Assembly: GCA_002917775.1 (NCBI GenBank)
Contig: KZ627153.1
Span: 816,692-880,691 of the forward strand
From: Glaciozyma antarctica PI12
Lineage: Eukaryota > Basidiomycota > Microbotryomycetes > Kriegeriales > Camptobasidiaceae
Direction: 5' to 3'
DNA length: 64,000 nucleotides
Part shown: one piece after another, positions 17,036 through 59,180 of the stretch
How positions within the stretch are numbered: position 1 is the first letter of the stretch
How the letters are laid out: every line of letters starts with the position of its first letter
Program-made: the position numbers and the translations under genes
Notes under the pieces: model-generated
What the model was told of the DNA's origin: nothing
The model's database searches: none
Seen by the model: only the letters and a program-made list of their open reading frames with translations

Positions 17036-18716
17036 CTATTTCTTCCCCCCCGTAGCCCCCGCCCAAGCTCCCTTGATCAGCTCGGCCACCCCCTGCACGC
17101 CCTCGCCAAGCTTGACGCTCGTAAAGATGGTCGGCCCACCGTCGCGCATGAGGTCTGAATCGCGCTTCATGACTTCGAGAGAGGCGCCGACGTAGGGCGC
17201 TAGGTCAATCTGCGAGGTGGGATTTGATGGAGAGGGCGAGAGGGGATGGAGGAGTGAGAGGAGGGGAGGAGCGGGAGGGGTGAGGGGGGGACGTCAGCGG
17301 GAAGGAGGGAGGGGAGGGAGAAAGCGCACCTTGTTGATAACGAGGAGATCAGACTATGAGAGAGTTAGCTGGGTGCGAGGAAGGGGAGAGCGAGGAACGT
17401 ACCTGCGAGATTCCGGGTCCTCCTTTGCGAGGGATCTTGTCGCCGCCCGAGACGTCAATCTGCGGGATTGATGGGGTCAGTGATAGCCTTGCTGCATCAA
17501 GAAGCATGATACGCACGACGTAGATGATCTGCGGGTAAGAAGGAGGTCAGCTCTCATCTCTTCTTCATCCCCGAGACGACTCACGTAGTCTGCCAGCTCA
17601 CGCGAGTAATTCGCTGCGTTCCACCGTCGTCAGCTACTCCTTCACCAGTAGAAGCTTTAAGCGAACGCACCAGCGAGGTTATCTCCTCCACTCTCAACGA
17701 ACAGCATCTCGCAGCCGTACGCCTCCTGAAGCTCCTCCAACGCGCCAATGTTGGCGCTGATATCCTCCCTGCGCTCCCCATCAGCTCCATCCTACCTAAC
17801 TTGACTCGCAACGCACCTGATAGCAGCGTGCGGGCATCCACCTGCTCCTCAATCAGCTCCATCCTCTCCTCCTCCAGGCAAACGCGCACTCACCCGTCTC
17901 AATCGCACGAATCCTTCCCCTATCCGAGAGCGCCTCATTCCTAATCAAGAACTCTTGATTCTTGATTCGTAAAGATATCGTTCGTGACAACCGCTGCCTC
18001 GGCTGTCAGCCTTCCTCGAGTTCCCTCCAGCGCGCCAAGAGTCGCTCTCACCGATGTTGTGCGTATCGCGGAAGATGCGGCAGAGCGCCAATGTGAGAGC
18101 AGTCTTTCCTGACCCCACTGGCCTGCACTCCAGTCAGGCCCGCTCAAGGAGAAGGAAGAGGAACGCACCCTCCGATACCGATAGTGAACGCACGCTCAGT
18201 CCAGTTCCTCCCCGAGTAATCTGGCAGGTCCCTCTCAGCGAACTTGCCTGTTCCCGTCCTATCAGCGGCGTACAGCGACGGGGGAGAACGAGGGACGGAC
18301 CAGGGTGCTCCATCACTTCGTGAGTGTGGCCGTGCTCCTGCGCTGCATGATCGTGGTCGTGCGAGTGGGCATGGTCGTGTCCGTGGTCGGCCGAGGCGAG
18401 ACTGGCGGTAGGAGGGGCGGGGATGAAGCGGGCGGTTGACACGGCTGAGATGAGGTGAGGTGAGGAGAGGAAGGAAACGACCGCGGAGATGGCGGCGAAG
18501 ACGACTTGGCGCTCGTCGGCGGCGCTTGTTCGACGTTGACGAGCTGCTTTCGTTCCTCTCCTTACAAGATCTACTACACGGAAGAGGTATCTTTGCTGCT
18601 TCCGAATGGAAACCCAGCTGGCAACGAGGTCGAGAGAGGACTCAAGAGAGGACTCGCTCGTCCTTCGCAGCCAGTTCGCCGACCCGAGTCCTCGCGCACA
18701 CACTCAAAACCACCAT
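17036..18716 (-). CDS. ureG: Urease accessory GTPase UreG, with an apparent frameshift
   Basis: UreG is the SIMIBI-class GTPase that drives nickel insertion into urease together with UreD/UreF. About ten exons on the minus strand. The N terminus is His-rich (HGHDHAHSHDHDH), a metal-binding feature of eukaryotic UreG. Then come FAERDLPDYSGR, the P-loop GPVGSGKTAL, AVVTNDIFT, the metal motif ETGGCPHAAIREDIS, VESGGDNLAA, VIDVSGGDKIPRKGGPG, the G4 motif NKIDLAPYVGA and an end in a Gly/Lys tail. The stop is at 17036. The proposed start is a 13-base first exon at 18716-18704, which fits in phase but is tentative. Right after DIFT (about 17954-17967) a 7-base unit is tandemly repeated and the frame changes by one; the downstream motif FLIRNEALSDRG is intact in another frame. 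It could be an assembly error or a true lesion. Confidence 0.9.
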
Positions 18717-24701: not shown

Positions 24702-27573
24702 TCAAACCACCAAAGCCGCTCTGTACTCTCCCAAAAAGCTCTCCGCCTCCGATATCCACGTCCCCGCAGCCCTGTACAACCCAATCTGCCCTCGAATCAA
24801 TCAGATACTCCGCTCCACAAAGAAGTCTCGGCGTAGGAGGAACAACGCACCTTGAGGCTCGACGCACTTCCCATCTGTCCCATGGCCGAATGCGCGAGCA
24901 GAGGCACGCTTGGATTCAGTACATCTGCTGCAGTGTAGCTCATCATCCCATTCGCGCCGTACGTGACCGCGAGAGAATGAACGATCGTTCTTCCCCAGTA
25001 ATTCCTGCGAGGGTCGGTGAGTGGGTGCGAAGGAGAGAGAGAGGGCGTACGAGATGGGGAGGGAGGGACAGGGAGTCTTGCTGGGTGAACAGCGGAAGAG
25101 GAAATCGCCGATGACCATGTTGCCGGAGATGGCGCTGAGGGCGAGGATCGGGCCTGCGAGGTAATGAGCGAGGCATTGAGCGAGAACGGTGGGAAGACGT
25201 TCCGCTCGCGCAAGGATCACGGGAGAAGAGTTGCCTGTCGAGTCTTCAGTACGGGCGATCGAGTGGAAAAGAATGGAGTACGCACCAGGTGTGGAAGAAA
25301 CGCTCCGACGTCTTGACGCCTGGCGTCATGTAGGTCCTGCGAAGCGAGAGATTCATCAGCGTCGGTGCGTCGATTTCGGAGAGGGATGCACGTACGTCCA
25401 AGTGTATGTCCAAGACGTCCCCGCAGCTGCTCCGGGCCAGCTGAAGAACTCGATCCGCTGCCTCGGCGACGCCGGAACATACGATGGCGTAACGACCGCC
25501 GACGTTGCAGTCGTCGACGCCGTTCCCGTGCTCGTATTCGCGATAATCGAGGTCGTCGCCGTTCCGCAAGTAGCACGCTTCTTAATCCCACCATCCGTTT
25601 CGGGAAACGCCTGCTAAGCTCGTCAGCGAAATTCGAGCGAGGGGAGCGAGGAGAACAGACCCGGTAGTAGAGTTCCAGGTTCTCGTCGTCTCGCGCCGCT
25701 TGCTCCTGGAGCGTAAAAACGGGTACTGCGAAGAGAGCAGCTCTAGAAACGAGGTGAAGAGCGCCAGCTGCGTCGCCGGTAGCCGTGGGTGGTGTGGCGC
25801 TGGTGCTTGAGCTGGCGACAGAGGTCGTTGCCGCAACCGAAGCTGTCGATGAGAGCGCAGTTGTCGATACCACAAAAGGAGAAAAAATCCTGCAGCATTC
25901 CCGTGTCGTTCAAATACAACCTCCAGCACGCCTGCGTTCTCATCAGCTCGCTACCTCGCTGCCACTCTCCGAAAGAGGAACTCACCCCGAGTTTAACAAC
26001 GGCATCGGCGCACGAACCAGAGGAGAGGACGCCCGAGGCTTGCCAACGGAAGTTAGGATTGATGTCCCCGTAGCTCATCCTGGAGCCGTCGGCGAGGCGA
26101 GCGGATTGGACGAAGGAGGCGACGGAAGAAAATTGATCTGTGGAGGTCGGGAGGGGAAGTATACCGGTGGAGGCTGAGGAAGGTGCGGAGGAGGAGGAGG
26201 CGGGAGTTGAAGTGGAGGAAGACGAGGTCGTGGTCGAAGTGGAGGAAGACGACGATGTGGTACTCGAGGAGGAGGTCGTGCTCGGCGAGGAGGAAGTAAG
26301 AGTCGAAGAGGACGTCGCGCTCGGCGAGGAGGAGTTAAGAGTCGAAGAGGAGGTGGTGGCGGTCGAGGAGGCGGAGGCGGAGGTCGTGCTCAAAGAAGAG
26401 GTGGTGGTCGAGGCGGTGATGGCCGTCGATGCGCGGGTGGTTGTCGTCGTGGCCAGAGGGGCTTGACTGAGAGTCGATGTAGTGCTGCTTCGACTGGTTG
26501 AATTCATACTGGTCGAAGGGATGGTTGCAGGTCGAGTCGTGGTCGTCGTCCGAGCCGAGGAGACGACGGCGCAGCCAGCTCCCGCCGGGCCGAGTACATA
26601 TCCAGCAACGCAAACTAACGAGGAATGAATCAAAAGGTCAGTTTCGACAACGGAGAAGAAGAACGGGACGCGCACCGAACGAGCATACGCCAGCCGAGGT
26701 ACAGGAGCGAGTAGAATGGGCCGGAATCGTCTGCGAGCACTTGGAGGCGCAAAGTGCGGTGGTGGTGGTTTCTGTTGTAGCCGGTGTTGTAGAAGCCCTC
26801 GTTGTCGTTGAAGCCCTCATCGTCGTTGATGCGATGAGAATCGGCGGTCTCGTCGTCGTTTTGGATCGCAACGCATCCCGTTGCAGCTGTGTTGAGGACG
26901 TAGCCGCTCAAGCATTCTGCGCGGAGGAAAGAATTCAGCACTGTCGAACCGCCAAGAGAAAGAAGGGAGGACTCACGAAAAGAGCACAGGTTCTTCGAGG
27001 TGCATATCCGCTTCGCGTTCGGCGGGAGAATGTTCGTACACCTGGTGACGACGCAAGTGTAGATAACGCATTGCGAATAGGCGTTGAAGTAGTATCCCGT
27101 GTTGCAGTCTGGAGGGGGCTTGAGGCATCAGCTGACGCCGTGATCCTCGATAAGGAGCCGAGTCACTCGTTCTGCAGAGATTGTTGACGCAGGCGCGGTA
27201 CGAGTTGGGAACGAGGATGCTGGTGCAGTCTGCGACAGTTGTACACGCTTTCCGCTTTTCCACTACAGCTCTGGTTAGTGAGCGAGCGGGAGAGCGAGAG
27301 CGAGCGCGAGACGAACGGATGTTGACATCCTGCGCAACCTGCTAGGTGGTCAGCTCCTCGTTGCAGAGCTCCCACTTTCGAGACGCACAGCTTCATATGA
27401 GAGCAAAGGCGCCGATCTGAGCACAAGTGGGTCAGCCAGCAGAAAGGTCAGGGCTCGATGCCGATGAGAAGGCGGGCTTACCTCTGGTCGACGCTTGCTG
27501 CAGGCCTCCCCTCCACAGTCATCACAGCGATCAGAAGCAGGCTGAACAACGGGAGGAACCGAACGATGAGCAT
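24702..27573 (-). CDS. Secreted Cys-rich protein with C-terminal beta-rich domain (paralogue A)
   Basis: ATG at 27573 starts a signal peptide (MLIVRFLPLFSLLLIAVM). Splicing gives a KR dibasic site (VVEKRKACTT), then about three Cys-rich repeats of the form C-x2/3-C ... C-x4-C-S-F-x-C-x2-GY (for example CTSKNLCSF, CLSGYVLN, CASKCSQ, GVCSF, CVAGYVLGPAGAGC). A long Ser/Thr linker follows. Next come WQASGVLSSGSC, LQEQAARDDENLELYYR, a second dibasic site before ATCGTAT, and a C-terminal domain: SWPGAAAGTSWTYTW, MTPGVKTSERFF, SLAVTYGANG and GLYRAAGTW. The stop is at 24702. Two frame changes are apparent, near 26860 (T4 run) and 25882-25887 (A6 run). The C-terminal domain has a lectin/polysaccharide-lyase-like jelly-roll look, which is only a suggestion. 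Function unknown; extracellular or cell-wall role is inferred. Confidence 0.75.
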
Positions 27574-31980: not shown

Positions 31981-32762
31981 TCTTAAGGAGGGGAGAGGGA
32001 GGGCGAGGGAGGACAGAGGGGAAGAAGGAGGAGGAGGGCCGAGATACAGAACAACCTCGCTGAAGAGACCTCGACCGAGCTTGATCCCGCAGAAAGGGAC
32101 AGTCGACGACGACTACGAACGACGACGACGACGATTCTACAGTTGGACAAGTCTACACTGCTTTTAGGTTTGACTGGGAGCAAGGGAGAAGGAAGCTCAA
32201 GAGCTTGGAGGGCGACGACTCGAGGCTGTTCCTCGCTCTCCGCCTGCCTCCTCCTCCTCTTCCCTCAGGTCTCCCCTCCTTCTCTATCAACACGTACGCC
32301 GCTACAACTGCTCCCAGTAATCCCGCCAAAGGGATCCCACCAGCGGGGAAGCTACACCTCCACAGCACCATCGACAAAGGAAGCCCGAATCACCTCGACC
32401 AGTTCAGCCGATCCTGCGCCATCCGACAGTCCTTCTTCGCCTCAAGCAGTCTCAGGTACCGCAGCTCTGTGCTTGACCGCAAGATTGCACCCCCCTGCCT
32501 GTCCCTCCAGATCGCCGTCGCCCGCCAGGATCGTCCCGCTGCCCTGACTCGCCCAGAGGCCCAGCCTCGACTCACTCGAGACTTCATTATAAAGGCGGAT
32601 AGGATTGCGGCGCGCGGCTTGCTCGTCTGTACCCTGTCGATCAAATAGCACGAGCGTGCCTGAACGGCGAGCGCGAACTGCCTTCTCCGCGATTGAAGAC
32701 GCCGCTTCCCTCTCTCCATCCTCTCGCTCCTCTCCTTCCTCAAGCTTTGACTGGACAGCACG
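31981..32762. promoter_or_regulatory. Divergent promoter region
   Basis: About 780 bases between the divergent RRM gene (minus) and secreted paralogue B (plus). Start codons face outward, so both promoters must lie here. A run of acgacg repeats lies at about 32105-32133. No TATA box or known operator is evident. Confidence 0.5.
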
Positions 32763-34580
32763 ATGCGCGTCGTACCGGTCGTTTGGGCTTGCATTTGGCT
32801 CCTGCTCTCCGCGCCGGTGGGAAGGGGACGGCCGACTTTCGCTGGAATCAACAAGAGGTGAGGTCGCCGTTCGATGTCCAAGACCCGAGCTGAGCGGCTT
32901 CCTTTCCAGACAGCAAGCAGTACCTCCGAACACTTCCTCGCCCTCGACTGCTTCGTTCTCGCCCATCACCTCCTTCACCCGTTCTGCGGGCTACGCCGAT
33001 GGCTCGGCCATGATGTACGGCGAGATCAACTCCAACCTGCGCTGGCAAGCTTCAGGAGTCCTAGCTATCGGTTCCTGCTCCAATACGGTCGTCGGACTCG
33101 GGGTGGGTACCGGCCTACCCGACTGGAGAACGCGAGCTGAAGAGTAATCGCAGACTTGCTTCCGCCAGTACCTCAACTCGACGGGGATGCTTCAAAACCC
33201 GCCAGCCGTCGCTGGAACGACCACGATATCACGAACTACGACCTCTCTTCTCATCTCCACCACGCCCCTCTCACGAACAATTTCGACTACCTCCTCACGA
33301 ACCTCGACTTCCACTTCTCGCCCGACCTCGCTCTCACGATCCTCCACGACCTCTTCTCTTCCTCCGAGGACCACCACCTCCAGTTTCTCAAGAATGACAA
33401 CCTCAACCGCACGAACGACGACGATCCAGTCACGACCTACCACCTCCCTCGCACGAACAACGACCGCCCTTTCGAGCTCAACCACACCCGCCGCAGCTAA
33501 ACCCACTCCCACCGGCGGTCTCCTTGATTTCCTCTCAGGCTTGTTTGGCAACTTCAAGGTCGCAGCACTCTCACTTCAAGAGCAGGCTGCGCGAGACGAC
33601 GAGAATCTGGACTTGTACTGGCAGGTGCGTTCCTTACCTCGCCCCCTTCCTCGAAACTTGCCGACGGGGCTTCCAGGCATTTCCCGAGACTCTGGGGGGA
33701 CTTCAGAAGCGAGCCACTTGCGGCACGGCGACCTCGTTCACGTGGACCAGCACCAGGACAGTTGCGACGAGCTCGTCGACTCCCAAACCAACTGCCTTCG
33801 TGCCGCCATCGCCTCGCCAACGACTCGAATTCCTTAGCTGGCCTGGAGCCGATGCGGGAACTTCTTGGACGTACACCTGGACGTGCGTTAAACTTCGCTT
33901 CTCGAATCTCCGCACCGCTAACGATGCTCCTTCGCAGGACGTACCTGACCCCGGGAGTCAAAACGTCGGAGCATTTCTTTCACCTTTGGTGCGTTCTCCG
34001 CTTCCCTCACCCTCCGTCGGCTGAGACGAGCTGCGCAGGCAACTTTTCTCTCGCGATCGCTGCGTGAGTGGTACGCCATTCCTCTTCAAGTTGCACGGCG
34101 ACCCTCGCTGACGTCTCTGCAGGACCTATATTTACCCTCTCCGCCTACCTCAACAACATCGTCATCGTCGACTCGCTCAAACGCTGCTCGCCAACGACCA
34201 CTCCCTGCCCCTCGATTCCTCTCTCGTCCGTCATCCTTCCTCGTCCTTCGCTCGGACCATAGACTGACTCCATTCGTTGTGTAGGAGCTTCTGGGGACGC
34301 ACTATCGTCCATTCCATCGCCGTCACGTACGGCGCGAACGGGACGATGACGTACACCGCCATTGATCACAGCAGGCCCAGCATTCCGCTGCTGAGCTACA
34401 AAGCGGTCGGACAGACAGGCAGCGCCGCAAGCTTGAAGGTACGTTGGCGTTCTGTCTTGCGTGATGAGGGACGCAGCTGATCGGCGTTGACTGCAGTTTG
34501 GCATGTACAGGGCTGCGGGCAGCTATATCGCGGAGGCGGAGCAGTTTGTTGGAGGGTACAAGGCTGTCAGGATTTCGTAG
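32763..34580 (+). CDS. Secreted protein with C-terminal beta-rich domain (paralogue B)
   Basis: ATG at 32763 starts a signal peptide (VVPVVWACIWLLLSAPVG). Exon 1 ends after AG of an Arg codon at 32857, the same phase and place as in paralogue A. The Cys-rich repeats of A are absent. Shared text with A: MMYGEINSNLRWQASGVL (A has MSYGDINPNFRWQASGVL), YLNSTGMLQ, LQEQAARDDENLDLYW, AFPETLGGLQKRATCGTAT, EFLSWPGADAGTSWTYTW, LTPGVKTSEHFF, GRTIVHSIAVTYGANG and a last exon starting FGMYRAAGS. A Ser/Thr-rich linker lies at about 33210-33500. The frame needs an intron at 34053-34122 with a GC donor; paralogue A has GT at the matching place. The frame otherwise looks whole. Function unknown; likely extracellular. 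It is inverted relative to A, with the RRM gene between. Confidence 0.8.
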
Positions 34581-38796: not shown

Positions 38797-40550
38797 TCAG
38801 CGACAGTCGAGAAGGCAGGCGATCGGATGACTTGCGATCCCTTGGAGCAATGAATTTTGGGAACGATGAAGGAGCTCGAATGGGTTCTGCGACGAAGGTC
38901 AGACGAAGCCAGAGGGGCGGGAGGAAGGAGAAGAACGCACTTGAAGCCGACGAAGGCGCAGAGAGTGGGAGCCTTGGAGCAAGCGATCTTGGCTCCGTTG
39001 GCGTGGATCCATCCAGAAGGGCACTGCCCACGAAGAAGACGATCTCGCCGACGTAAGCTCCTGGAAAGCGAAAGCGTGAGATCGCTTCGTCGTCTTGCGA
39101 GAGAAACGAAAGCGAACCGGAAGGTCCACGAGTTCCAGTCTTGCCGACCGCGCCAGGAGCGCCAGGAGCGCCAGGAGCTCCGGCAGCGCCGTTGAATCCC
39201 CGAGGTCCCTGAGGTCCGACAGCTCCGTTGAGTCCTCGAGGTCCCTCCAAGCCGTCGACGCCGTTGATTCCATCGGCTCCGTTGGGTCCGGCAGGTCCGG
39301 CTGGTGATGTACGGGAGATTTAGTGCGGCGCGCTTGAAAGACTTCCTGAGACCTTGAATACCCTGCTCGCCCTCTGCAAGCGAGAAAAGCATCAGCGGCC
39401 GAACTTCTCGCACGGCGACAGGCACATCGTACGGATGCTCGCGCCATCTTTGCCGTCTGCGAATATGGATCAGCTAGGTCGCAGAACGATGGGAATATTG
39501 CCCCACACCAGCTCCATCGGCTCCGTCCGCGTGGTAGGAACTCGTAAGCAAAAGCGCTCGGGAAAAGGTCGAGGGAGGTTAGGGTTACCCTTGCCCGGAG
39601 GTCCTTGGATGCCCTGGTCGCCCTCTTGGAGAAGGAGAGGCGTCAGCGAGGTATTTGCGCGAGTAGAAGGTGGAAGGTAGGCGAACTGGTACTCTCGCCG
39701 TAGTTTCCATCTGGAATCGAGTCTCAGCGACGCAACCGTTGTGAGAAGCAAGCTGAAGCATACCGACTCCATTGACTCCGTCTGCGAAACTGTATCAGCG
39801 ACGGGACTCGACTCCGAAGTCAGGGGACGACTCATCGATTCCAGGAATCGCCTTGGGTGCCTTGGTCGCCCTTGCGAAGATGAAACATCAGTCAACTTCA
39901 CCGAGGCGATATCTCAATCAAGCTTACTGATTCCGACACCGTCAACGCCGTCTGCAGAAAGGAACAGAAATCAGCAGGCGTTCCTCGCACGCAGCAAAGT
40001 CGCTCACCTTTCCCGTCGGTGCCATTGATTCCGGCCGCGCCAGCTGTACGGGTCGACGGCGTCAGCCAAAGCAAGCCGAAGCTGAATAAACGTGGAACGC
40101 ACTATCGCCCTTCTCGCCCTCTGAAAAGATCACGTCGCGCATCAGCGTCCTTCGCCCAGCGAGAGTCGGGTTGGAGACGCACGAAGACCTTTTGCGTATC
40201 CGCGCGCGTTAGCGAGTCGTCGAAACAGCAGAAAAGAGCAGGCGTACGGATTCCCTGAGCGCCGGTGTCTCCCTTCTCTCCCTTGAGTCCGTAAGCTCCA
40301 TCTGTTCGACGACGGACTTTGAGCTCTGGCGCGAAGGACGTCGACGAAAACACGCACTGTCTCCAGCCTTGAGAACCAGTTCTCGCTAGCGAGGTTCTCT
40401 CCCCTGCGCAGACTTCTTGAACCGCGCGACTGGAGAGGCTGACTTGCACTTCCTACGCGCTCGATGCTGTCGGGGGATTTGGTGCGCGAGGTGCTCGCTA
40501 CCTCCGCAGGGGCGGCGAGACGTTTGAACAAGCCCCAAGCCGATGCTCAT
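38797..40550 (-). CDS. Collagen-like Gly-X-Y protein built from micro-exons
   Basis: The largest exon (about 39304-39110 on the minus strand) encodes some 20 uninterrupted Gly-X-Y triplets, for example GPAGPNGADGINGVDG and GAPGAPGAPGAVGKTG. Upstream lie about nine small exons, roughly 20-50 bases each, with GT-AG (some possible GC-AG) borders. All start and end in phase 1 and add further triplets: GLKGEKGDTGAQG, GEKGD, TGAAGINGTDGK, GDQGIQGPPGK, GEQGIQ. The 3' part encodes a Cys-containing end (QCPSGWIHANGAKIACS, TLCAFVGFK). At least two candidate exons look damaged: one at about 39490 whose acceptor reads CGCGG, and one at about 39870 that seems to lack two bases at its acceptor. The 5' end is not settled; ATG at 40550 gives no obvious signal peptide. 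A triple-helical surface or fimbrial role is inferred. Confidence 0.7.
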
Positions 40551-40643
40551 GAAGTGCTGGACGTCTTAAGGCTTTGACTCAAGATTCATTCCGGACGTAG
40601 AGCTCTGCAGTCCCAGTGGGAGACGAAGGAGTTGGCGCGCGAG

Positions 40644-41020
40644 GGAGCCGCTCGGCCAGATTGGCGGATTCCGAGCGAGCGAGCACTGATTTGGGTTCCT
40701 CCGGTCCCCCAAGTTCCGCGCTTGCTCTGCTGTTCTGGCAGCTTGATTCTTGCGTATGCGGTCGTGATCGCTGAGCTATTCACGAAGAAAAACCTCGACC
40801 TAGGTCGGGGAGCCGCTCAGCCAGATTGGCGGATTCCGGAGCGAGCGAGCACTGATTTGGGTTCCTCCGGTCCCGCAAATTCCGCGCTTGCTCTGCTGGT
40901 CTGACCGCTTGATTCTTGCGTATGCGGTCGTGATCCGTCAGCTCTTCGCAAGGAAAAGACCTCGACCTAGGTTGGGGAGCCGCTCAGCCAGATTGGCGGA
41001 TTCCGGGCGAGCGAGCACTG
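40644..41020. repeat. Tandem repeat, about 166-bp unit, 2.3 copies
   Basis: The phrase ggagccgctc(ag/gg)ccagattgg starts at 40644, 40809 and 40976, that is with spacings of 165 and 167 bases. Copies share actgatttgggttcctccgg, cttgattcttgcgtatgcgg and cctcgacctagg. The third copy stops at about 41020, where the LINE fragment begins. Confidence 0.85.
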
Positions 41021-41448
41021 ATTTCCTCCTCAACGGCGTCGCCATCCCTCGCGTCCCCACCGTCACACTCCTCGGCGGGATCAGCGACGAGAAGCTCTCC
41101 TTCAGAGGCATCGTCGACCGCGTGGTGGAGAAGGCGCCCAAGGCGCTCAGCGGGCTTGCGTCACTGGCGAGGTCGACGAAAGGGATCAGCATGCGCCTCG
41201 CGCGTACGCTGGTGATATCCTGCATCTTGACCAAGCTCGACTACCTCTCTGCGCTCTGGTACAAGCCCGGCGAGAGCCTCGCGGCTATCGCTAAGCTCGA
41301 CGCAGTGCAGGTATCGTGCGCCAAGTTCATCACGGGTGGGTTCCTCAACAGCGGCGGAGATGTGTTGGGGTACGAGGCGAACATCCTCCCCACCCCTCTC
41401 CCGTATCATAGCTGGCCAAGAGCTGAAAGTGGCTTCCGAAATATGTAG
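41021..41448 (+). mobile_element. LINE (non-LTR) reverse-transcriptase fragment
   Basis: One open frame encodes the segment between the reverse-transcriptase and RNase H parts of non-LTR ORF2 proteins: VTLLGGISDEKLSFRGIVDR, VEKAPKALSGLASLAR, ISCILTKLDYLSALWY and LDAVQVSCAKFITGG. This matches the pattern of a fixed 'LG ... D.kLsF..H', then an 'll.Y...lW' element and 'l...Q..cak.ItG'. There is no polymerase active site and no endonuclease in the window, so it is a short 3'-part remnant. The tandem repeat on its left and the direct repeat on its right may belong to the same insertion history. Confidence 0.8.
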
Positions 41449-41590
41449 GGCGTCTCGGCCGGCTCGACGGCCGGCTCCTGACCAGTTCGCCCACGATCCG
41501 CGCTTTGGGTGTCCTCAGCCATACTCGCTTTGCAACAATCTTGTCGTCGCGCTAATGTACCCGAATCATAGCTGGCCAAGAGCTGAAAGT
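41401..41590. repeat. 30-bp direct repeat, 160 bp apart
   Basis: The 30 bases at 41401-41430 recur at 41561-41590 with one difference (core catagctggccaagagctg). The spacing of 160 is close to the 165-167 of the array on the left, so the region may be a diverged continuation of the same kind of array. It overlaps the end of the LINE frame. Confidence 0.75.
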
Positions 41591-42437
41591 GCGAGCGAAA
41601 TTGTGAAGCACTCAATCCTCGGTTCCGCGCTCGTTCCTCAGGAATTATGGCCAGATCCAAGCGGTGTGCGTCCTCAGGCAGCGCGGCTTCGGTCAGAGCT
41701 CCTCTACCGACAAAATCGAAGCGACGGCTCAGAAGTCGACGACACCGGCTTGGTGTTCACTTGGTGTTCACCGACGATGCTGCGTTCTCCCCGAGGTCTT
41801 GACGTTGTCGAGTTTGGCGACGCAGGAGAGAAGTGTTGAGGCGAGAGGAGGTGCGGTGCTGAGAGCTCGTAGATGGCGAGGAGAAGGAGGAGAGGAGGGG
41901 CGCGCAGTCGTGGTAGGAGAGAAGAGAGAGATTGCTGGAGTGAGGCAGGGGTGGCGATGGAGGATTCGGTGGAGGGCGAGGGCGACGGAGAAATGTGCTT
42001 GGAGGAATGTGCTTTGGGATCACACCTATGTAGGCCAGTCCGTTCCTGCAGTCCCTTCCCAGCTCGACGAACAGTAAGAAGGTTAGCTCCACATCGTCCC
42101 TCGTGTAATCCAGCAACAGTCTTGCTTCCTTCCTCCTCGTCCTCGTCGTCGTCGTCGCTGCCCGTGGACCTCCACCCCCGCCTCCAACAGTGTTGCCTCA
42201 AGTCCTCAAAGTCGGCTCCCTCATTCCCAGCTGCCATCTACCCACACCCGAGCTGGCGATTGAAGGAGGAAGATGGCGTTTGGAGGAGGGAGGGGAGAGG
42301 GGAGAGGTGGAGGGTGCGGCGGCGCAAGCTTGTGTCGAAGGGTCGGGAGCGGAAGGCTGTTCATCGCAAGTCGCCTAGCAAAGCATGAGCTGTGCGCCCC
42401 GCACAATGAACCAGTCAACTCACCGCAAACGCTAGCG
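41591..42437. other. Unresolved region after the repeats
   Basis: On the minus strand a frame from about 42237 starts MAAGNEGADFEDLRQHCWRR and has an acidic run (SDDDDEDEEEGSK). No continuation with consensus splice sites was found. Short duplications such as ttggtgttcac at 41750-41772 suggest replication slippage. No confident gene. Confidence 0.3.
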
Positions 42438-42938: not shown

Positions 42939-44189
42939 ATGCCCGAGTACGACCCCCCAGTCCCTCCTCCTCCTCTCCCACCTCCCGTCTCAGTCGCAGC
43001 ACGTTTCGTCTCCGAAACGGCCCTCGAAGCGGCGAAGCAAGCGCGGGAAGAAGCGTGGAAGGAGACGTACGCCAAACTCGGGCAGGAACCGCCGGCTAAG
43101 GAGGAGGAGGCGCCGTATGCACGGTATGACGTTTGTGGGAGAAGCTCCAGGAGCACAAGGTGCGTATCCGCGTGCTGTGGTGGCGGGGGAAGGGCTTGCG
43201 GGAGCTGTGGAGGGCTGTGGGGAGCTGGTCGAGCTGGAGGCGCGTGGACTGGCTCCATCTTTGAGGGACTCGTTCACAGGACCTGCTCTCGCTGCTCGTT
43301 TGGAGGGCGCTAGACCGCTGGGATTTTTCGAGCTCGCGAGAAGAGCCTGCCGGAAGGATGGGAGGAAGTCGTCCTGCTTGTGGAGGAGGCGACCTCGGGA
43401 GGAGCCACCCTTCGCACCTGCGAGACTTCCTATTCCTCCGGAGCAGGAGCTCTGGTATGCACGATGAACGGAGCAGTCTTTTTCAGCAGCAGCGGGCTAA
43501 GATTGCACGTTCAGCTCCATCACTCCTCGATTTGACGCGAAACTGTGGCCCGACCTCGGTTCGCCAGCTGCTGTGGAACCAAAGCCCACATTTTTGCAGC
43601 TACTGACCCCGCTATATCCAAAGGACAAGAAGCAGGAAGCCTTCGACGAGCAGATCAAGTTCAGTACGTCGTCCTCTCCTCCTCCGTCCTTCGCCTGCCA
43701 ACGTTCAACTGCAGAGAACCAGTTCCGCGCGCTTGACGAGGACGAAATCTCATTCCTTGACTCTCTCGTCGACGAGGACCACGAGGAGGAGGACCGCAAA
43801 AAGCAGCAAATCAAGGACGAGCTCGCTTCGTTCCGCAAGTGCGTCTTTTGCCCGCTTCCACGCTACGCACCACTCACCACTCACTCGCCATCCCCACTAG
43901 AGCTGTCATCTCCCGCGGCGCCCTTCCTCCTCCTCCCGATCTCGCCGGTTCTCCCCTCACCCCGACCCCCGCCGTACCTTCTCCCGCCCCAGTACCTGCA
44001 CCGAAGAAGGCGGCGGGAAAGAAGAAGAAGGGGATCCCCGGCGTCATCGTGAAGAAGAAGGCGCCTCCATCGATTGTGCCGGCGAAGGAGGAGGGAGGAC
44101 TGAAGCGGAGTGCGAGTGGGGAGGTCGAGGACGAGGAGAGGGAGGGGGAAGAGGTGAAGAAGCGGAAGGTCGATGGGGGCGGGACATAG
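42939..44189 (+). CDS. NIP30/FAM192A-type protein, with an apparent frameshift
   Basis: Homologue of PSME3IP1/FAM192A (Nefa_Nip30 N-terminal domain), a nuclear protein that in animals binds the PA28-gamma proteasome activator; its fungal role is not known. Exons 42939-43159, 43624-43663, 43715-43838 and 43901-44189. Text: RFVSETALEAAKQAREEAW, LWEKLQEHK then DKKQEAFDEQIKFKNQFR, and the signature RALDEDEISFLDSLVDE. The C-terminal half is Pro/Lys-rich with a probable nuclear signal (KKAAGKKKKG, EEVKKRKVD). In exon 1, near 43128-43131, LWEKLQEHK is out of frame with the preceding PPAKEEEAPYARYD; one more base would give a 224-residue protein in which every exon phase fits. Intron 1 is 464 nt. Confidence 0.85.
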
Positions 44190-54676: not shown

Positions 54677-57600
54677 CTACCACTCCAACTTGCTCGACCC
54701 CGACCCACACGCGTGAGCTCCCGCCGGCGCTGGTGCCTCATCTCCCAACTCCATCGCGACGGCCTTGTCGCTCGGCCCAACGATCTCCAATGCCGTTGCC
54801 AAATTCTTCCCGAGCGCCTCGGCAGTCGCCTTGCGCACCATCCACTTGGAAGTCCCGATGAGCGAGTCGAGGTCGTCGGAGGGATGAAGGAGTAGTAGGA
54901 CGCTGCCGAAGTCCTCCCGCGCTTCGAAGGCCATGACTTTGTACTCGTCGTCGTTGATGCAGTCGCCCGTGTCGAGACGGTAGTTGCGCTTGTGGAGACT
55001 GCGGGGGATGAAATTAGCGACGCTGCGGAGGAGGGATGAGAAAGGAGGACGCACGGACACGAGACGTAGAGGTTGCCGTTCACGTCGTCGCCGATAATTC
55101 CATGGTCGAGTACTTGCGCCTTCTTGTGAGGGCATCCCTGGGAGAGGAACCATCAGCGGGAGCTAGGAGAGCACGAACGACGCGACGAACCTGCTGAGTA
55201 GCAAAGTAGCCGCGCTTCGGAACGTGGAAGATGGCGAGCTGAGTCTCGTGTCCGTATCGAACGGCAGCACTCCTGCGACGGCGACAGCGTTCAGCAACAT
55301 CGAGGCTCAGGAGCAGGTAAGGAGCTTACGAAGTTCCCTCGTCCGTGGGCTGCAGATCTCCCACCGTCGCCATCTTGACCCAAGTCCACTGCTCCGGCGG
55401 TGTCGGAATGTCCTTGACATCGTACTTCTGCGCCGGAAACGCCTTGGGCCAGTCGGCGGGTCGCTGCTGACCTCGCTCCTCGATCATCTCAATTGCAGGT
55501 GAGCGTTCGTCCTATCCACGATTGACGTCAGTTTCGCAGGCAACGAAAGCCAGAGGAAGTAACGCACAGTGTTGACGAACTGCTTGAAGGTCTTGCGGAG
55601 CTCGGGATCGAGGACGGTCTTCTTCCACTCGTCCTCGTACGATCCGATGAGGAAGTCCATCTCCTTGTCGAGGTCGGCGCAGATGCCAAGCTCGTCGTCG
55701 AGGATGATTCGACGCAGCTTCTGCGAGAGAGAGGATGCGTCAGGCAAGGTCGAGGGAGGAGAGAAGGGAGGACGAACCTCGACTCCTCCTTCGAACTTGT
55801 CGAGCCAGGGAGCGGTTCGCACGAGACGATCGGCGGTGCGAATGTAGAACATAAGCTGCGCGACGCGGGTCAGTCTCAAGCGAGGGGAAGAAGGATCAAA
55901 GAGCGCACGAATCGATCGATGATCCGAACGACCTTGGACGGAGGGACGTCCTGCGCGAAAAGGACAGCGTGCTTGGGATTCGCTCCTCCATTCCCACCCA
56001 GGAAGACTGAGAGTCGCATCAGCTTCCCTCCCTCCACCGGAATGTGAAAGAAACGCACCATTCCATCCCTTATCCGTCGCAATGAGTCCAAAGTCCTTCG
56101 ACTGCGCCTCGGCACACTCGCGCACGCATCCCGAAACTCCTCCCTTGAACTTGTGCGGGCTCCTAACGCCCCGATACCGGTTCTCCAGATCGATAGCGAG
56201 TCCGACGGCATCTCCGACGCCATAGCGACACCAGCTTGAGCCGACGCACGACTTGACCGTCCTGAGCGACTTGCCGTACGCCTGACCCGACTCGAAGCCG
56301 CCGGCGATAAGCTTCTCCCAGATATCGGGAAGGTCCTGCCTCTGCGCGCCGAAGAGGTCGATGCGTTGACCTGTGCGAGAGAGGTTAGCGAAGAAAGGGT
56401 GGGAGGGGAGGGGACGCACCCCCGGTGATCTTGGTGTAGAGGCCGTACTCCTTTGCGACTTGACCGATGAGGATGAGGCCCTCGGGAGCAACTTCTCCAC
56501 CCGCGATACGAGGAACAACGGAGAAGGTCCCGTTCCGCTGGATGTTGGCAAGGAAGCTGCACGCAAGCTCGTCAGCTCCGTCGAATCACGCGAGGAAGGA
56601 GAGGACGCACCGATCATTCGTCTCCTGGAGTCCGTGAAGCTTGGGCTTGAGGATGTGCTCGTTGTAGAGCGACGAGAGAATGCTAGCGACGGCGGGTTTG
56701 CAGATCTCGCAGCCTAGGGCGTTGTGGCCGACGCCAGCGACGGCCATGATCGTGTTGAAGTCCTGAAGCTTCTTGATCTTGACGACGGCGAAGAGGTCGA
56801 CTCGACTCATCTTGAAGTGAGGGCAGAGGCTGTGAGCTGGGATCAGTACGCGTCGGGCGAGGAGCGAAGGAAGGGCCGCACTTGTTGTTCGTCGCGTGTC
56901 CAGCTTTCTTCATCTCGGCCTTGTAGATGTTGGTGACGAGAGGAACGCAGCCACCGCATCCTGCTCGCAATCTCAGGTTAGCTCGCGTTACGCTGGACAC
57001 GAGAACGAGCAAGACGCACCTGCTCCAGCCTTCGTCTTGCACTTGATCTGCGCCAGGTCGGTGACTCCCTCCTTGATGCACGCCCCGATTGCTCCCTTGA
57101 GGACGTTCTGCGGTCAGAAGCGGATCAGCAAAGACCTCTCGCTCGGAGCGAGAGAGGAACGTACGTGGCATGAGCAAATCTGCGCATCGTCGTCAAGGTC
57201 TCCTCCATCTTCCTCGCCCTCCTTCTTCGCGCCGATAATAAAGTCGGAAGGAGGAACATCAAGCTTCTTCTACTCGCGCACAAAAATGTCAGCTCCGGCA
57301 TCGCAGCGAAGCGAGCGTCGACGGACCTTCTTCTTGATAATCGCGACCATCTTCGTAAAGCTACCTGTATCGCCAATCATGATCCCGCCCAGGAGATACT
57401 TTCCATCGGCGGTAAAGATGTACTTCTTGTACGTCGCCGAGAAAGGATCATGGTACGTCAAGCACTTGATCGGGTCGTTCCTCGTATCCCTCGGTTGTCC
57501 CCTCTTGCGCGGTTGAATGATCTCGACGCCTTGTTCAAGCTCGGCAGCGACGGCGGCTTTGTGCATGCGTTCGTCGGCAAAGTAGTCGCCAAAGGAGGCA

Positions 57601-59180
57601 ACATCTACGCCCATCAGTTTGAGCTTTGTCGAGAGATCGGGGTCGTTCATCTTTCATCTTGCCGTGGCTGGCGGTTTGGGTCTGCGCGTGCGGAGGTTAG
57701 TGAGGTCTTGCGGCAAGGATTGAGAAAGGACGCACGAGGTTGAAGGCGAGGATATCGGCCATCTCGACTCCAGGAGCGATGAGCCCGTACGTCTGCGCGC
57801 GCGTCCATCAGCTCGAACCTCAGCAGAAGGAACGCGACGACGTACGTTCCCCCTCCAGCTCGCACACTCTCCAATCGCATACACCCCCTCCGCACTCGTC
57901 ATCAAATCATCCCCGACCTCAATCCCACCTCGCTTCGCACACTTGATCCCACTCTGCTGCGCCAAATCGTCCCTCGGCTTGATCCCAATCGCAAAGATGA
58001 CCAAATCGCTCTCGACCTTCTCCCCGCCCTCGACGACGAATCCGCGGAAGACGTCCTGGCCTGCTGCGTCCTTCTCGACGAGGATATCGGTAGGTTGGCA
58101 CTGCGTGAGGACTCGAACGCCCATGTTTTCGATCTTGCGGAGGACGAGCTCGCCGGCTGAGGCGTCGAGTTGGCGATTGAGAGGATAGTTCTGGCGGATG
58201 AGGATGGAGACGTTGGGGATCGTGGGCATTTCGTAGACGGCTTTAGCGGCTTCGAGTCCGAGGAGCTGTGGGGGGTTAGCTGGGGTCGTTCGAAGGCGCA
58301 AAGGAGAGGGACGCACTCCACCACCGACTACGCTCGCACGCGTAACGTGATCCTGGTCCGCGTAGTCCATGATCTTCTCCAGGTCGGCAATGTTGCGGTA
58401 CACAAACACGCCTGCTCCGAGAGGGGGTTAGCTGGGGTTGGGGCGGGAGATGGGGAGGGGGAGGTGGCGGGCGCGAGGGAGCAGGAGTAGAGGAGGAGGA
58501 AGAACGCACCCTTGGTAGCTTCAGCGCGCTCCATCGAGACGTACGGCGGTAGTCCTGCGCCCGAGCCCGTCGCCATCACGAGGATGTCGTACCTGCTCTC
58601 CTCGTCAGCTCGAGCTCCTCCAGCCTCCACGAAAGAACAAGCACGCACTCCCACTCGTTCTCCTTGCTCGTCCGCACGACCTTGGCGACAGGATCAATCT
58701 CCATGACCTGCTCGCCGATGTGGAAGGCGAAGCGGTCGGGCTCCTGCTCGGCGTACCAGGACGCATCGTTCAGGTAGAGCTCGGCGACGTTACGATGTTG
58801 AAAGTACTCTGCGGGGCGTTGCGAGTTAGCTGAATGTCGCTGGGGTGGGCGCCGTTGGGGGAGGAGCTGGGGAGGAGAGGGAGCGACTGACCCGTCAATC
58901 CTACTCGGTTGTAAGCCACCATTGGCTCTTCTCCGCAGGTCCTGATAAAGTACTTGCGGTCGACATCGAGGTTGAGGAGTTTCTCGATGAAAGCTGCGAG
59001 TGGAGGGAGGGAGAGGAACGAAGTCAGCGCGAGCGTCCCCTCAAGCTGGCTCCAGCTGCCTTCTCGGCGCAGTACTCGATAGAGCGACTCACCGATTCCA
59101 ACCATTCCCAGACCGACTACAAAGACCTTGGTCTTGCCCTGACGCGGCTCATGAATCGCGTCGCTAGCGATAGGCGACAT
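54677..59180 (-). CDS. Nitrite reductase [NAD(P)H], siroheme-dependent
   Basis: Reduces nitrite to ammonium with six electrons from NAD(P)H in nitrate assimilation (Nit-6/NiiA type). ATG at 59180, stop at 54677, about 20 exons. Domains in order: FAD/NAD(P) part with VFVVGLGMVG, ILVMATGSGA, ASVVGGG then LLGLEAAKAVYEMP, and SAEGVYAIGECASW; a BFD-like [2Fe-2S] site, ICSCHNVLKGAIGACI with GCGGCVPLV; the nitrite/sulfite reductase half domain NGTFSVVPRIAGGE; the siroheme/[4Fe-4S] cysteines in SCVGSSWCRYG and GGVSGCVRECAEAQSKD; and a Rieske-like C terminus with GCPHKKAQVL and LYVSCPLHKRNY. All metal ligands I expect are visible. The end GAHACGSGSSKLEW is unusual in having an extra Cys. No nitrate reductase or nitrate transporter lies in this window. 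Confidence 0.95.

Follow-up and report, generated by a model that had tools for sequence, protein, structure and literature searches.

The minus strand of this Glaciozyma antarctica PI12 contig carries runs of Gly-X-Y triplets divided among very small exons, which raises the question of what kind of gene such an array belongs to and whether that gene is still intact. An earlier note, made from the letters alone, had placed a collagen-like gene at 38797-40550 and suggested surface fimbriae as its function. The window is the whole 64,000-nt stretch that was analysed, and coordinates refer to its minus strand unless stated otherwise.

The collagen array and its exons

Between 38.8 and 40.36 kb, we observe a collagen-like array that consists of a 183-nt exon and, 5' of it, 11 micro-exons of about 18-54 nt. 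The large exon (39118-39300) contains 20 Gly-X-Y triplets, much as the earlier note had estimated for its longest uninterrupted run, with an open run of 21 extending a few bases into the intron, and it has 36-bp and 9-bp repeats inside. Together with the first residues of the next exon, it matches Pfam Collagen (PF01391) with an E-value of 3.2e-11 and 43.3 bits, above the curated cut-off of 27.2, which is the outcome of the profile search that the note had proposed as a check; the spliced x0 and u1 exons reach 31.3 bits against the same cut-off. In a profile search of the 20-Mb genome (three candidates scored), the window is the only place found above this cut-off. In the PDB, the collagen exon is closest in sequence to animal collagens (alpha-2(I), E 1.6e-42), matches that say nothing on ancestry because the sequence is repetitive. 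One protein match elsewhere (C8:583017-583235, E 1.9e-5) was discarded, as it was gone once the query was mostly without collagen.

Counted over all 12 exons, Gly occupies 52 of 55 triplet starts, and 44 if the three exons without complete borders (u2E, u3D and u4E) are set aside, in either case more than the roughly 35 triplets first estimated. The three exceptions fall at the identical place in three homologous exons (u1D2, u2D2 and u3D2) of equal length (24 nt). The core observation of the earlier note, a collagen array of small exons, holds and is partly confirmed, with its extent shortened at one end: the array accounts for 38.8-40.36 kb, and 40364-40550 is repeat DNA.

The array is a super-repeat of ~250 bp (direct-repeat spacings of 251/248 and 244/255 bp, thus every 244-255 bp) in which the exons are mostly conserved and the introns diverged. 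Each block has the order E, D, D2, and the fourth consists of E and then the large exon. The splice percentiles given here are relative to the training set of a gene model (the window plus 20 stretches of 10 kb from the same genome, with higher intron costs), and since that set was built by the same model, it is biased to strong sites. The model's introns (n = 506) have a median length of ~56 nt, CAG acceptors in 431 of 506 cases, and mostly GTGCGT, GTACGT or GTGAGT donors. These intron features would point to an intron-rich fungus, probably a basidiomycete; a search for the aromatic lyase family PF00221, as a further aid to placing the host, gave no match.

At the 5' limit of the array, a cut collagen exon retains its final 6 nt (...GD[N], 40358-40363) ahead of a donor at 40357 (GTGCGT, 70th percentile), from which a 56-nt intron leads, with Gly in register, to micro-exon x0 (40248-40301, 54 nt, GAYGLKGEKGDTGAQGI; acceptor 49th, donor 13th percentile). 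The first block comprises u1E (40103-40120, 18 nt, GEKGD; acceptor 19th, donor 73rd), u1D (40008-40043, 36 nt, GAAGINGTDGK; acceptor 35th, donor 46th) and u1D2 (39928-39951, 24 nt, GVDGVGI; acceptor 85th, donor 8th). The second opens with the register-placed u2E (39838-39872, GDQGTQGDS), in which the GXY codons are intact and a usable in-phase acceptor and donor are both absent, and continues with u2D (39764-39781, 18 nt, GVNGV; acceptor 73rd, donor 5th) and u2D2 (39687-39710, 24 nt, GNYGEST; acceptor 30th, donor 8th). The third holds u3E (39589-39624, 36 nt, GDQGIQGPPGK; acceptor 15th, donor 2nd), u3D (39509-39526, 18 nt, GADGA), which has an acceptor without AG at the 1st percentile and a donor at the 4th, and u3D2 (39433-39456, 24 nt, GKDGASI; acceptor 71st, donor 7th). 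In the fourth, u4E (39348-39373, GEQGIQGL) has an acceptor at the 94th percentile and an uncertain 3' border, with no in-phase donor scoring above 1, and the large exon follows with a weak acceptor (3rd percentile) and a donor at the 14th.

Splice borders and the growth of the stalk

The earlier note had described all of the small exons as bounded by phase-1 introns. This is the case for 8 of the 11 micro-exons (54, 18, 36, 24, 18, 24, 36 and 24 nt), which have GT/AG phase-1 borders in the Gly register, and it fails for the other three, which were located by register and homology: u2E lacks usable borders at both ends, u3D at its acceptor and u4E at its donor. From x0 to the large exon, the introns measure 127, 59, 56, 55, 56, 53, 62, 62, 52, 59 and 47 nt (with three exons register-placed), that is, 47-62 nt with a single outlier. 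Weakness is concentrated in the donors, 8 of 14 of which do not exceed the 8th percentile, as compared to 3 of 14 acceptors at or below the 3rd, including that of the large exon. Chance is a poor explanation for the array. Upstream of the large exon, four micro-exons satisfy the strict criteria (phase 1, Gly-X-Y, acceptor and donor scores over threshold), a number reached in none of 1000 dinucleotide shuffles (mean 0.004); outside the gene, 11 such micro-exons occur in ~528 kb of strand (the window and the 20 stretches). Among internal exons of the training set, 30 of 438 are of phase 1-1.

Similarity between blocks has p < 0.05 against 500 shuffles in 6 of 6 comparisons for the E exons, 5 of 6 for D and 1 of 3 for D2, and in 1 of 9 comparisons for the introns; these values are uncorrected for multiple tests, and three of the six D comparisons used a u3 exon that ended two bases short. 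The pattern suggests that blocks were duplicated whole, with selection keeping the exons and the introns drifting. The stalk would then owe its length to a ~250-bp block, comprising three phase-1 micro-exons (E, D, D2) and their introns, that was duplicated in tandem. With both borders of every exon in phase 1, gain or omission of an exon leaves the reading frame unchanged, and individual exons could in this way lose their splice sites. The point that symmetric exons are losable, already made in the earlier note, fits the three micro-exons without complete borders, each of which would be skippable in frame.

Small Gly-X-Y exons that were duplicated to build a stalk are likewise found in animal fibrillar collagen genes, and x0 here has a length of 54 nt. 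In the description of the animal genes that we draw on, the 54-bp exon unit starts with an intact Gly codon (PMC2852846), whereas the introns of the window array split the codon preceding Gly after its first base. The exons here are moreover mostly of 18, 24 and 36 nt, and the 3' part is collar-like, unlike in the animal genes. The independent origin proposed in the earlier note is therefore likely, given the intact-Gly 54-bp unit there and phase-1 borders here (PMC2852846). No Pfam match to the fibrillar C-terminal domain was found in the 3' pieces searched, the 3' end of the gene being undefined. A micro-exon of 20 nt is also described in a fungus, in Trichoderma Xlr2, where it stands alone, as a regulated exon of a transcription factor gene, rather than in an array (PMC11121469).

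Collar-like sequence and a second locus

3' of the collagen exon, the first collar exon (38941-39060; acceptor 47th, donor 83rd percentile) encodes GAYVGEIVFF in one frame and CPSGWIHANGAKIACSKAPTLCAFVGF[K] in another. Codon scores favour a different frame for each stretch: +1.8 for GAYVGEIVFF in its own frame versus -4.8 and -7.1 in the others, and +5.9 for CPSGWIHANGAKIACSKAPTLCAFVGF in the collar frame versus -12.9 and -4.7. A long frame-0 ORF reaching 38768 was considered as the C terminus and rejected, with a codon score of -12.9 over 39022-38941 as compared to +5.9 in the collar frame. The second collar exon (38830-38886), which starts THSSSFIVPK, has an acceptor at the 92nd percentile after a 54-nt intron.

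The CPSGWIHANGAKIACSKAPTLCAFVGF piece alone (28 residues) matches the Phage Tail Collar Domain (PF07484) with 18.2 bits and an E-value of 0.0025, and with the following exon added the E-value is 0.0056. When both frames are joined by X, the match covers profile positions 1-50 with 21.9 bits and an E-value of 0.00017. The window copy therefore stays below the PF07484 cut-off of 24 bits (18.2-21.9 bits), and its domain is spread over two frames rather than contained in a single open one. The alignment spans the intron at 38940-38887 and ends at profile position 50, corresponding to FIVP, and since it crosses the intron to reach these residues, it supports the splice. Shuffled controls gave a Collar match in 0 of 10 cases. 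Among further searches, PHROGs returned weak matches on the collar side (E 0.12-0.29), the collar-side pieces have no NCBIfam or PDB match, and the window's collar is absent from the results of a genome-wide Collar profile search (E up to 10; one candidate scored). By this sub-threshold match, the sequence 3' of the collagen is similar to the tail collar domain of phages, an identification that also draws on where it lies, on the fit of the frame-0 peptide to the profile start and on a second locus. An error in the assembly might account for the frame break.

The second locus lies on contig C6, where PF07484 is matched above its cut-off of 24 at 518615-518815 (minus), within a single open frame of 113 aa (29.9 and 20.1 bits); this is the one candidate scored in the genome-wide Collar search. 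On the same strand and ~1 kb away, PF01391 is matched at 519784-519855 with E 0.013 and 19.9 bits, which is below the cut-off and within a loose limit, over 24 positions of the profile, within an open frame of 43 aa (three candidates scored). The two matches are associated by position only, and it is unlikely that two rare families would fall within ~1 kb on one strand by chance. A sequence search of the genome with the window's collar pieces did not retrieve C6, and the two copies have therefore diverged.

The same order of domains is seen in gp52 of Roseobacter phage CRP-207, in which a collagen match (residues 294-336, 24.2 bits, below 27.2) abuts a collar (336-391, 66.4 bits). Its identity to the window gene is ~32% (tblastn E 2), insignificant by sequence alone, and the window gene differs from gp52 in being divided by introns and apparently broken. 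A collar domain is also described for OLV18 and OLV19 of the Organic Lake virophage, and OLV19 is listed for collagen-like repeats as well (PMC3671162); as a virophage gene, it is likened to the window gene by description. Polinton-like viruses are described as having modular fibre proteins with collagen repeats (PMC12220804), and the collagen-like proteins of E. coli prophages as trimeric, with stalks of collagen and globular end domains other than the collar (PMC3368898). By analogy, the product of the window gene would be a trimeric, presumably secreted fibre with a stalk of collagen triple helix and a tip of the phage-tail-collar type.

State of the window copy and competing readings

Homology to repeat DNA starts at 40364, 6 nt before the collagen donor at 40357, and extends on the 5' side of the gene to 41711. 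It comprises a C4-type repeat (40364-40645), a 166-bp tandem repeat (~40643-41025) and a stretch at 41385-41711 with a second occurrence at C4:157.9-158.2 kb; 41026-41384 has no match elsewhere in the genome. Diverged copies of the 166-bp repeat occur on contigs C2, C3, C6, C8, C9, C10, C11 and C14, including the very end of C3, and lie within ~5 kb of one another on each contig except C8, which has two places; this repeat could mark centromeres or a retroelement. By eye, a reverse transcriptase-like stretch is seen at ~41027-41448 (plus), with no Pfam match. A candidate start (MSIGLGL...) near 40545 was rejected as lying inside repeat DNA, and no start codon or signal peptide, the latter a check proposed in the earlier note, was found for the window copy. 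Past the repeats, a FAM192A/Fyv6 N-terminal domain is seen at ~42940-43200 (plus; E 2.4e-6).

We consider the window gene most probably to be a copy, now in decay, from a fungal family of fibre genes (collagen stalk, collar-type tip) with a second locus on C6. Because repeats cut its 5' end and its collar is frame-shifted, the window copy probably gives no fibre today, and it is the C6 locus that may serve as the functioning gene. Gly codons are retained even in the three broken exons, as would fit a gene that died recently or one on which constraint still acts. A competing reading is that the gene is live, with a first exon inside or beyond the repeats, micro-exons with weak sites acting as alternative cassettes for stalk length, and a frame break due to sequencing error. 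In keeping with a live gene are the Gly residues at nearly all triplet starts, the 11 of 14 acceptors at or above the 15th percentile, the normal intron lengths and the possibility of in-frame skipping of symmetric exons. We nevertheless regard it as rather unlikely, with the first exon cut by repeats, 8 of 14 donors weak and the collar in two frames. The gene model calls no upstream exon out to 44 kb, which is weak evidence because the same model does not call the collagen gene either.

Two other readings dispense with a fungal family of this kind. The locus could be the direct remnant of an integrated virus, polinton or virophage with a collagen-collar fibre gene, for which OLV19 would be the precedent, but the introns match the host's own in size and type, and tblastn of viral contigs gave no relative at E 1e-3, making this quite improbable. 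That the gene encodes a collagen of fungal fimbriae, as first proposed, with no relation to phage fibres, we find scarcely credible: a collagen repeat is indeed present in a fungus, but it is followed by collar-like sequence in the window and lies beside a collar at C6, the copy looks broken, and neither a start nor a secretion signal was found in it. Nor is a collagen prolyl hydroxylase shown. The genome has one place matching the 2OG-Fe(II) oxygenase family PF13640 (33.5 bits versus a cut-off of 27; an exon-wise search may miss others), for which the PDB yielded no relative at E ≤1, and for the window gene both fimbriae and prolyl hydroxylation are unsupported. Collagen repeats are known from Metarhizium MCL1 and other fungal proteins too, and the accounts of these proteins in question do not mention a collar domain (PMC11105155, PMC11446221).

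Within the preferred reading of a decaying fungal fibre gene, the domain make-up suggests that the gene possibly descends from a phage, bacterial or virophage fibre gene. More specifically, and tentatively, the fungus may have acquired a collagen-collar gene of phage or virophage type that became filled with introns, the number or inclusion of phase-1 cassettes setting stalk length, with C6 working and the window copy recording cassette decay. Besides the viral contigs, tblastn returned five phage records at E 2-4 and 14 plasmid records with matches on the collagen side only. A comparable history is described for a bacterial alpha-amylase gene in Basidiomycetes, transferred and filled with introns of median 56 bp (PMC3584928); there, transfer is that paper's result, whereas for the window gene it is suggested by the domain make-up. 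No fungal collagen-collar gene is named among the matches listed from the open-licence literature. If the preferred reading is right, the locus would be an instance of the collagen-plus-collar fibre plan in a eukaryote, provide a small-exon collagen stalk that is independent of animals and of different phase, and preserve a record of symmetric exons duplicated and lost singly. C6 offers a specific locus for testing surface fibres in a fungus.

Elsewhere in the window, two Ser/Thr-rich frames at 25743-27127 (minus) and 32593-33837 (plus) appear by eye to be related through the common motifs ADGxxMxYGxINxNxRWQASGVL and YLNxTGMLQ, the former frame having no Pfam match above cut-off. An 11-exon gene at 17036-18313 (minus) is predicted to encode a CobW/HypB/UreG-family protein, UreG-like by eye, and a 21-exon gene at 54677-59180 (minus) a 1071-aa protein with a pyridine-nucleotide oxidoreductase domain at its start, which we presume to be perhaps a nitrite reductase.
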